Source: Armatimonadota bacterium (GTDB taxonomy: Bacteria > Sysuimicrobiota > Sysuimicrobiia > Sysuimicrobiales > Sysuimicrobiaceae). Taken from it: DNA of 64,000 bases. The stretch covers positions 310,001 to 374,000 of the forward strand of contig JAVKGW010000002.1 of the NCBI GenBank assembly GCA_031460175.1, in the 5' to 3' direction. Below are positions 53,853 through 56,592 of this stretch, one piece after another. The notes beneath the pieces were generated by a model. The model saw only the letters and a list, made by a program, of their open reading frames with translations, was not told the origin of the DNA and searched no databases. The position numbers and the translations under genes are program-made. The number at the start of each line of letters is the position of its first letter. Position 1 is the first letter of the stretch.

Positions 53853-54613
53853 GGCTCCAGGGCGATGAGACCCTCCATCCGACCCACCCGCCCGTCCCGC
53901 CGGTACGAGAAGAACCACTCCCCGTGACACGCGGTGCAGGCGGGACAGAAGCTCATCCGGTGCCAGGATACCCCGACATCCCGGAGCTGCACGCGGGCCA
54001 CCGCCCGAAGGTCCAACTTCCAGTGGCCGGGACGGGTGGGCAGAAGGGCCCCTTCCGCCCAGCGCTTTAGGGCCTCCACCACGGGCCCGTCCACCTCGTA
54101 GCAGCAAGGGCCCACGGAAGGCCCCCCCACCGCGGTGATGCGGTCGGCCCGGGCCCCCCGGGCCACCATGACCTCCACCACCCGGGCCAGGATCCCTCTT
54201 GCCAGCCCCCGCCATCCCGCGTGTGCGGCCGCCACCACCCCCGCCTCCGGATCCACGAGGAGGACGGGGAGGCAGTCGCTGGTCCGAACGCTCAGCACCA
54301 GGCCGGGTTCTGCCGTCACCACCGCGTCCGCCACGCCCAGCTGCCTTCCTGCGTCAGCCCTCTCCGCCACTACCGCCCGGGCGGTATGCCGTTGGGTGAC
54401 CGCTACGGCCCGTTGTGGATCGAATCCCAACGCCGCGAGCAAGCGGGCCCGGAAGGTGGGGTCCGCCAGGGGATCGGAAGATCCCATGCGGGCCCGGCGG
54501 GTGGTAAAGGCATGCCGGACCCGGGCCACACCCTGGAGCCGCCTGGACCGCAGGCACCACAGCCCCTCTACCTCCACGGGCTCGAAGTCGGGTCCGAAGG
54601 GCATGGGATCCAT
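53849..54613 (-). CDS. pgeF: PgeF/YfiH-family protein (multicopper-oxidase-like fold, peptidoglycan editing)
   Basis: A 254-residue member of the DUF152/YfiH family. Metal and active-site residues are visible in VTQRHTARAV, VRTSDCLPVLLVD and VAAAHAGWRGLARGI. Members were described as laccase-like polyphenol oxidases and purine nucleoside enzymes, and E. coli YfiH edits mis-incorporated residues in peptidoglycan precursors. The position beside yggS and sepF fits a cell-wall role. The ATG at 54613 lies only 14 bases after a strong hairpin, in the leader of the gene. Confidence 0.88.
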   Translation of the reverse strand: MDPMPFGPDFEPVEVEGLWCLRSRRLQGVARVRHAFTTRRARMGSSDPLADPTFRARLLAALGFDPQRAVAVTQRHTARAVVAERADAGRQLGVADAVVTAEPGLVLSVRTSDCLPVLLVDPEAGVVAAAHAGWRGLARGILARVVEVMVARGARADRITAVGGPSVGPCCYEVDGPVVEALKRWAEGALLPTRPGHWKLDLRAVARVQLRDVGVSWHRMSFCPACTACHGEWFFSYRRDGRVGRMEGLIALEP

Positions 54614-54627
54614 CCGTGCACGGAAAC

Positions 54628-54658
54628 GGGCGCGGGAGGGAAGTCCCCTCCCGCGCCC
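54628..54658 (-). terminator. Strong hairpin after the ferredoxin gene
   Basis: A perfect 13-bp stem (54628-54640 with 54646-54658) and a five-base loop, followed on the minus strand by GTTTCC. It can end the HTH-ferredoxin transcript. The T tract is short, and the pgeF start is only 14 bases beyond, so partial read-through or attenuation into pgeF-yggS-sepF is possible. Confidence 0.65.
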
Positions 54659-54683
54659 CGTGTGCACCGTTCGTGGCCCGGAC

Positions 54684-54977
<294 letters not shown>

Positions 54978-55003
54978 AGGTCCCTCCTCCGATGGGGTTT
55001 GGG

Positions 55004-55453
55004 CTAGACCGCCTTGCGCTCGCCACGCTGTACCCGATCCACCAGGAACTCCACGTACAGGAGCAGGGCCTCCACCACGTCCGCGGGGGCCGGCCGCAGC
55101 TTCTCGAGATTCGCCTGGAGACGGGCCCATAGGACCGGACTCGCAGGCTCCGGCCGGGCACTGCGCAGCTCCACCACGTCCATGGGCGTCACCAGGGCCG
55201 CCACCCGCTTCATCACGGAGGGCCGAACCCCCAGGGCAGGGGCCAACCGCTCGATGTACCATGGCTTGCGGAGGTCCTGGAGGCCCCGCTCTCCCCGGGA
55301 GAGCACACTCAGGGGGATCCCGGTCTCCTCACTGAGCTGCCGCAGGCTCTTGCCCTTGCCGCGGCCGTAGAAGTTCTGCCGCAGGGACCGGATGTAGTTG
55401 CCGAACGCCCGGGCCCGCTCCCTGGACTCCGCCGGGTCACTTGTTCCTACCAT
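55004..55453 (-). CDS. HTH (Xre-like) transcriptional regulator
   Basis: A 149-residue protein. Residues 15-85 hold a helix-turn-helix domain of Xre type (GKGKSLRQLSEETGIPLSVL followed by SRGERGLQDLRKPWYIERLA); the C-terminal 60 residues are helical with no named domain. The ATG at 55453 has GGGAGGGTG upstream and lies inside one of two matching palindromes, so it very likely represses itself. The regulated operon includes the 7Fe ferredoxin 26 bases downstream. No cysteine cluster or ligand-binding site that would identify the signal is evident. Confidence 0.82.
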   Translation of the reverse strand: MVGTSDPAESRERARAFGNYIRSLRQNFYGRGKGKSLRQLSEETGIPLSVLSRGERGLQDLRKPWYIERLAPALGVRPSVMKRVAALVTPMDVVELRSARPEPASPVLWARLQANLEKLRPAPADVVEALLLYVEFLVDRVQRGERKAV

Positions 55454-55459
55454 GGAACA
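55442..55459. promoter_or_regulatory. Operator palindrome 1 (TGTTCC-N6-GGAACA)
   Basis: A perfect dyad that covers the start codon of the HTH gene and lies just downstream of the expected transcription start (about 55461). An identical pair of arms occurs at 55506-55523, centre to centre 64 bases away, about six helix turns. Confidence 0.7.
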
Positions 55460-55467
55460 CCCTCCCC

Positions 55468-55497
55468 AGTTTACGCGGGGATTCTCCCGGATTTCAA
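55468..55497 (-). promoter_or_regulatory. Promoter of the HTH-ferredoxin operon
   Basis: On the minus strand TTGAAA (55497-55492), 18 bases, TAAACT (55473-55468). It lies between the two operator palindromes, so a bound dimer at each site could close the promoter by looping. Confidence 0.65.
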
Positions 55498-55505
55498 CCG
55501 CCAGA

Positions 55506-55523
55506 TGTTCCAGATTTGGAACA
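55506..55523. promoter_or_regulatory. Operator palindrome 2 (TGTTCC-N6-GGAACA)
   Basis: The second perfect copy of the dyad, eight bases upstream of the -35 element of the HTH gene and 28 bases before the divergent mutY ATG. It could influence both genes. Confidence 0.7.
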
Positions 55524-55551
55524 ACCAGAGGAACTGGTGCGTTTGCCGGGA

Positions 55552-56592
55552 ATGACATCCTCGATGGATACCGGTTTCTCTCGCGCGCTGCTGGCCTGGT
55601 ACGTCCGGAGTGCGCGCCCGCTCCCCTGGAGGGCCACCCGAGACCCCTACGCCATCTGGGTGGCGGAGGTCCTCTTGCAGCAGACCCGGGTGGAGGTGGC
55701 TATTCCTTACTACCACCGGTTCCTCCAGGCCTTCCCCACGGTGGAGTCCCTGGCCGCGGCACAGGGGGAGGAGGTCCTGCGGGTGTGGGAGGGATTGGGG
55801 TACTACGCCCGAGCCCGTCACCTCCACCGGGCCGCCCGTCTGGTGACGGAGCAGGGGGGATTCCCCACCACCGCGGAGGGGTGGATGAAGTTACCGGGGG
55901 TAGGTCCCTACACCGCGGCCGCCATCGCGAGCATCGCCTTCGGCCAAGACGTGCTGGCCCTGGACGGCAACGGACTGCGGGTCGGGGCGAGACTACTGGG
56001 CATCCGCCGGCCGTTGGATGACCCCTCCGCCCGCCAGCGCATCCGCGCGGGCCTGGAGGCCCTGCTCCCCCGGGGCCGGGCCGGGGAGTTTAACCAGGCC
56101 CTCATGGACCTGGGAGCCACGGTGTGCCTAGCCCGGTCTCCCCGGTGCGAGGCGTGTCCGGTGTGGAGGTGGTGCGCGGCCGCGGCCCACGGGCTTTGGG
56201 AGCACATCCCCGCCCGGCCGGCGAAGCGCCCCAAGCCCCACCGCCACTTCGTGGCGGTCCTCGTGCGGGACCCCGCGGGTCGGGTGCTGCTGGTGCGCCA
56301 GCCCCCGAGGGGGTTGTGGGGCGGGCTGTGGATTCTCCCACAGGTGGAGGCCCGGACGTGGAGGCAGGCCCGGCAAAGGCTCGAGCGTGTTTTGGGGGTC
56401 CGCCTGCGGCGCCGCACGGGTAGGCCCTTCGCCGTCCTACAACACGGCTTCACCCACTTCCTGGCCACCTTCCGCGCGGTAGAAGCCATCCCAAGCGCCC
56501 GGCCCGCGGTAGGGCGCTTCGTCTCCCCCCGCTCGCCGGGTGTCCCGGTTCCCGTCCCGACCCGGAGGATCCTCGAACGGCTCAGGACCTAG
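55552..56592 (+). CDS. mutY: A/G-specific adenine glycosylase MutY
   Basis: A 346-residue DNA glycosylase that removes adenine paired with 8-oxoguanine. The glycosylase core has LLQQTRVEVAIPYY, the helix-hairpin-helix LPGVGPYTAAAIASIAFG and the catalytic Asp in LALDGNGLRV. The [4Fe-4S] cluster motif is C-x6-C-x2-C-x5-C (CLARSPRCEACPVWRWC). The C-terminal Nudix-like domain reads 8-oxoguanine (RQPPRGLWGGLWILPQ, FTHF). The start has only a weak ribosome site; a second ATG is five codons inside. The stop overlaps the nrdJ stop by four bases. Confidence 0.94.
   Translation: MTSSMDTGFSRALLAWYVRSARPLPWRATRDPYAIWVAEVLLQQTRVEVAIPYYHRFLQAFPTVESLAAAQGEEVLRVWEGLGYYARARHLHRAARLVTEQGGFPTTAEGWMKLPGVGPYTAAAIASIAFGQDVLALDGNGLRVGARLLGIRRPLDDPSARQRIRAGLEALLPRGRAGEFNQALMDLGATVCLARSPRCEACPVWRWCAAAAHGLWEHIPARPAKRPKPHRHFVAVLVRDPAGRVLLVRQPPRGLWGGLWILPQVEARTWRQARQRLERVLGVRLRRRTGRPFAVLQHGFTHFLATFRAVEAIPSARPAVGRFVSPRSPGVPVPVPTRRILERLRT

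Follow-up and report, generated by a model that had tools for sequence, protein, structure and literature searches.

The closest described counterparts of the regulator studied here are SinR and SlrR of Bacillus subtilis, which belong to the XRE family and have a similar helix-turn-helix (HTH) domain. The inverted-repeat duplex that SinR binds best in vitro, TTTGTTCTCTAAAGAGAACTTA, contains GTTC-N8-GAAC according to PMC3163267. SinR targets carry several sites distributed along 80-100 bp. Another instructive case is C.Kpn2I, a controller protein that regulates a restriction-modification system and represses its own gene by a roadblock; PMC6237814 describes it as a small regulator that binds within its own gene and also acts on an adjacent promoter. 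A search of titles and abstract openings, with subscription papers mostly outside its coverage, returned no description of the operon or the motif reported below.

In the window (the whole stretch of DNA analysed, 64,000 nucleotides) a short operon encoding an HTH protein and a ferredoxin is preceded by a promoter that lies between two perfect dyads of the same pattern. The features of the locus are as follows.

55552..56592, plus strand: mutY, the divergent neighbour (TIGR01084 matched above cut-off)
55506..55523, no strand assigned: putative outer operator, a perfect TGTTCC-N6-GGAACA dyad, TGTTCCAGATTTGGAACA
55468..55497, minus strand: HTH-ferredoxin promoter of sigma-70 type, -35 TTGAAA (55497-55492), 18 bp spacer, -10 TAAACT (55473-55468)
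55442..55459, no strand assigned: putative inner operator, a perfect TGTTCC-N6-GGAACA dyad, TGTTCCTACCATGGAACA
55004..55453, minus strand: HTH gene, 149 aa, XRE type (Pfam HTH_31), DNA-binding domain most like that of SinR/SlrR
54684..54977, minus strand: fdxA-type ferredoxin gene, 97 aa, 7Fe (3Fe-4S plus 4Fe-4S), 26 bp past the HTH stop codon
54628..54658, minus strand: strong, G+C-rich 13-bp hairpin behind the ferredoxin gene, a possible terminator

The original prediction of two perfect dyads 64 bases apart, one just upstream of the -35 element and one across the HTH start codon, was borne out by a pattern scan in sequence, position and placement. The start-to-start distance of 64 bp corresponds to 6.1 turns at 10.5 bp per turn, and the 'six helical turns' of the prediction are thus correct. 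The outer dyad is upstream of the -35 hexamer, its near end 8 bp away, and lies 28 bp from the first likely ATG of mutY; the inner dyad, which begins 8 bp past the -10 hexamer, includes the HTH start codon ATG. TTGAAA-18-TAAACT, between the dyads, was the only promoter found by a promoter scan of 54560-55620 (mean in shuffled sequences 0.0). Apart from these two dyads, the pattern scan of the whole window gave no match with fewer than two mismatches; at up to two mismatches the window had nine matches compared with a mean of 1.70 in shuffled sequences, none of 100 shuffles reaching nine. The whole 2.49-Mb genome has three perfect dyads as against none for the reversed control pattern (131 against 59 at up to two mismatches), and the third perfect dyad is within a glycosyltransferase-like reading frame.

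The predicted order of HTH gene, 7Fe ferredoxin and hairpin was confirmed, although the terminator scan accepted no T-tract at the hairpin. A strong hairpin follows the ferredoxin gene also in genomes G001 and G009; it is not clear in G002, G004 and G005. The ferredoxin carries the CX7CX3C and CX2CX2CX3CP cysteine pattern and resembles solved 7Fe ferredoxins (1bc6, E 6.4e-31; 2v2k, a ferredoxin, E 3.1e-31), which identifies it as a 7Fe protein of the FdxA type; its best NCBIfam model, FdxA_Actino, was matched with a score of 115.4, under the model cut-off of 125. What sets this locus apart from FdxA as described is that the ferredoxin gene sits behind an HTH gene.

The HTH protein belongs to the XRE (Cro/C1-type HTH) family, its HTH_31 score being 27.8 bits against a cut-off of 27, and the same model was matched by 16 of 16 aligned orthologs at E values up to 1. 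Its DNA-binding domain matches SinR (E 9.4e-5; SinR PDB chains 5tn0, 3qq6 and 1b0n at E about 1e-4), and hhalign against a SinR sequence gave a probability of 93.8% over 53 columns, covering the HTH part only. The SlrR model NF046032 was matched by 5 of the 16 aligned members. In the alignment, which comprises 16 of the 18 orthologs (G025, with a broken frame, and the partly masked G028 were omitted), the recognition region is invariant, as is an SVLSRGERG stretch in all 16 proteins; for the alignment and the structure job, GTG and TTG starts were written as M. The dyads share with the SinR site the inverted GTTC-N8-GAAC geometry, but the half-site is TGTTCC here and GTTCTYT for SinR, with GTTC alone common to both. 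The HTH protein also differs from SinR in that a Pfam search found no SinI/SinR-type hook domain, and in that the operators flank its own promoter. No second match to the protein was found in its own genome at E up to 10. A phage origin was considered and rejected; two records of one phage matched, with 40% identity over 62 residues. The structure model has helices at 106-119 and 124-142, is weak (mean pLDDT 69.7, pTM 0.48) and gave no Foldseek match at E up to 0.001; the predicted structure carries no weight in what follows.

Clear orthologs of the HTH gene were found in 18 of 41 genomes with the protein as query and in 18 of 43 with the alignment; order and phylum searches yield only the same 43 genomes, and neither G024 (E 1.6e-4) nor a second, weak match in G003 was counted. 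(In PMC11604079, Armatimonadota are the outgroup for CSP1-3/Sysuimicrobiota.) The original prediction expected the dyad to recur in front of these orthologs. The inner dyad was present at 13 of the 18 loci, and nine of these had both dyads: all seven genomes of family f1, G008 (f3) and G009 (f4), with at most two mismatches per dyad (up to two in the G002 and G003 sites). The comparison across orthologs thus argues well for twin operators around the HTH-ferredoxin promoter. All nine ferredoxin-bearing loci have the outer dyad and none of the nine loci without ferredoxin has it, and a TAnnnT sequence stands ahead of the inner dyad, at a distance of 6 to 9 bp, in 9/9 twin-operator loci and in 0/4 single-operator loci. 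In 9/9 loci of f1, f3 and f4 the dyad pair, the -10 box and an adjoining ferredoxin gene are found together. Loss of the ferredoxin is accompanied by loss of the outer operator and of the promoter box, so that the families present a natural experiment in which operator pair and box are there with the ferredoxin and absent without it. When 215-bp upstream segments of the 18 orthologs were dinucleotide-shuffled, at least one dyad with up to two mismatches appeared in 28 of 5400 shuffles, and none of the 5400 had two or more. The orthologs are related and these counts are not independent events; the flanks beyond the dyads and the promoter box nevertheless vary widely among the f1 genera, f3 and f4. 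Dyads, promoter box, operon order and conservation can be read directly from the sequences compared. The ferredoxin gene adjoins the HTH gene in all nine twin loci, though in G008 and G009 it is truncated where the contig stops. G008 has a ferredoxin start on each of two contigs: one follows the HTH gene where C72 ends (locus L091), and the other is at C100 1-428 (L114), where it sits behind transposase-fragment-like sequence and its frame ends differently; an insertion element or an assembly break is a possible cause.

Family f2 shows a different arrangement. A search at E up to 1e-20 detected the ferredoxin gene in none of its ten genomes, and of the nine that have the HTH gene four (loci L029, L030, L034 and L036) keep a single inner dyad over the start codon, without a TAnnnT box. 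The remaining five (G016, G019, G022, G028 and G037), all the dyad-less cases among the 18 orthologs, have no dyad near the gene though the recognition region is conserved. A search of 6 to 18 kb around the gene in these five genomes gave a perfect dyad only in G022, 13.5 kb off and inside a rhomboid-like frame; G028 has a two-mismatch site about 3 kb off. Since several f2 loci sit close behind a sugar-permease-like frame, as read from the translations, the HTH gene at these loci may be transcribed from an upstream promoter. The f2 inner dyad without promoter box is a possible roadblock site, by analogy with C.Kpn2I, and the roadblock idea fits best these four loci. In the ferredoxin-bearing loci, unlike C.Kpn2I, the inner site is at the likely transcription start, which makes initiation the likelier step to be blocked; a further difference is that no restriction-modification genes were seen adjoining the HTH gene.

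The overlap of dyad and start codon recurs among the orthologs. With start codons assigned by hand, the start lies at dyad positions 10-12 in 11 of the 13 loci that have a dyad (TGTTCC-NNN-NTG-GGAACA), as ATG in most, GTG in G002 and TTG in G006 and G008, and as ATG at positions 7-9 in G000 and G001. A half-site of the putative operator encodes the N-terminus of the putative repressor, Met-Gly-Thr in 9/13 and Met-Val-Gly-Thr in 2/13 dyad loci. The -10 box ends 6 to 9 bp ahead of the dyad, which puts the expected transcription start near the dyad edge and would leave a very short leader.

In the seven f1 genomes YGTTCC-N6-GGAACR has 18 matches, 11 at the HTH locus and 7 elsewhere. The off-locus rate of 1.0 per genome is like the background of 1.3 per genome in the 23 genomes that lack the HTH protein and have 29 dyads versus 9 reversed-control matches; because dyads outnumber the reversed control even there, weak or scattered dyads are indistinguishable from noise. 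A wider regulon was considered for this genome and set aside: the third perfect site and six sites with one mismatch overlap long reading frames, although such overlap is weak evidence in G+C-rich DNA and the right frame at C3:328645 is uncertain. Of the seven off-locus f1 sites (one each in G000, G001:C1, G001:C3, G003 and G004, two in G002), those of G000, G001:C1, G003 and G004 were inspected. Since the inspected dyads lie in reading frames, the regulon looks like approximately one operon, in contrast to SinR, which targets biofilm genes. The genome scan that the prediction had proposed revealed no convincing dyad elsewhere in the genome, in agreement with the self-contained unit it had described. 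G039, which lacks the HTH protein, carries two perfect dyads of identical sequence, TGTTCCGGTACTGGAACA, 434 bp apart on one contig (C178:198-215 and 632-649).

Taking these sequence comparisons together, it is highly probable that the dyads are the operators of the HTH protein itself, through which it would repress the HTH and ferredoxin genes, the outer site strengthening or tuning the effect. The HTH protein is by far the likeliest binder, since its gene is adjacent, its recognition region invariant, its domain SinR-like and the GTTC-N8-GAAC geometry the same. According to this model a dimer of the SinR-like XRE protein would bind each dyad; the dimer at the inner site would cover transcription start and start codon and block initiation by RNA polymerase directly, giving negative autoregulation of a two-gene operon, and the outer site by the -35 element would strengthen or tune repression, most simply through cooperative binding or a small repression loop. 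The identity of the binder, the sign of regulation, cooperativity and the relieving signal are the parts that we infer. Autoregulation by an XRE repressor with paired operators is a familiar mechanism, here well conserved and ordinary in kind; what the locus adds is a regulator with clearly delimited operators, from a bacterial lineage that is uncultured and little studied, and a hint of how cells may keep a 7Fe ferredoxin at a set level.

Whether a loop is essential to this repression is more doubtful. A tetramer, or dimer of dimers as in SinR, could bridge the operators and bend the promoter into a small closed loop, an arrangement that we regard as possible yet hold only tentatively. The dyads are 64 bp apart in six genomes, 74 bp in G009, 84 bp in G003 and 134 bp in G008. 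At 10.5 bp per turn the first three spacings make 6.1, 7.05 and 8.0 turns; the outer dyad shifts relative to the -35 element (8-9, 21 and 28 bp) with the phase kept, and for the tetrameric SinR a loop over 80-100 bp is suggested in PMC3163267. The 134 bp of G008, however, make 12.76 turns, and a Rayleigh test, resting on four distinct spacings, gave p of about 0.13 at 10.5 bp per turn, 0.075 at 10.4, 0.47 at 11 and 0.018 at 10.0, this last fit having been noticed afterwards. Helical phasing of the spacings is thus suggestive only. Nor did the Pfam search find a hook domain of the SinI/SinR kind through which a tetramer might form, and the C-terminal part of the structure model is not reliable enough to be used. 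The locus would be among the simpler systems for testing looping at short range with a SinR-type protein. The redox regulon of the original prediction was not supported for the HTH protein: Cys is absent from 13 of the 18 ortholog translations (including a partly masked one), no column is invariant or nearly so for Cys, and domain searches found no extra or sensor domain. For want of a conserved Cys, the reading of the HTH protein itself as redox sensor was rejected; a redox link could run solely through the ferredoxin or another partner. It would be rather surprising if the most elaborate scheme applied, in which a SinR-like repressor closes a small loop around its promoter and adjusts the amount of ferredoxin by feedback; the signal would be the ferredoxin or its cluster state, and operator and start codon would be fused, a half-site encoding the N-terminus of the repressor.

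Binding by some other regulator of the genome, with the HTH gene merely a target, would be in keeping with the low dyad background in genomes without the HTH protein, and binding by the latter is deduced from sequence; but the dyad accompanies the HTH gene in four families, even though the upstream neighbour changes twice, and the checked sites outside the locus lie in reading frames, which makes another binder very improbable. It is still harder to credit that the inner dyad acts as RNA and controls translation by folding into a hairpin of 6 bp whose loop holds the start codon. UGUUCC and GGAACA are able to pair around the start codon, and the four f2 loci keep the inner dyad with no promoter box beside it; yet 6 bp make a weak stem, and the same dyad recurs upstream of the promoter, outside the expected transcript of the gene. 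The centre of the outer dyad, just upstream of the -35 element, is a position open to activators, and the likely mutY start is 28 bp off in this genome, so that the outer site might be an activator site or an operator shared with mutY, at which the bound HTH protein helps or blocks a neighbouring promoter instead of supporting repression at the inner site. We consider this unlikely. The dedicated link to mutY that had been predicted is not upheld by the comparison, since mutY is adjacent (and divergent) in only three of the nine twin-operator loci (G000, G001 and G008), lies about 0.8 kb off in G003 and was not found near the other five; moreover, the promoter scan found no mutY promoter. As the outer dyad is kept without directly adjoining mutY in six genomes (G002, G003, G004, G005, G006 and G009), it probably serves the HTH-ferredoxin promoter first, and mutY may be touched by it in the three genomes where the genes adjoin.

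At its far end mutY meets a convergent gene for a B12-type ribonucleotide reductase, the two stop codons overlapping in one CTAG (window positions 56589-56592); in G003 (L092) the mutY and ribonucleotide reductase matches are about 140 bp apart.
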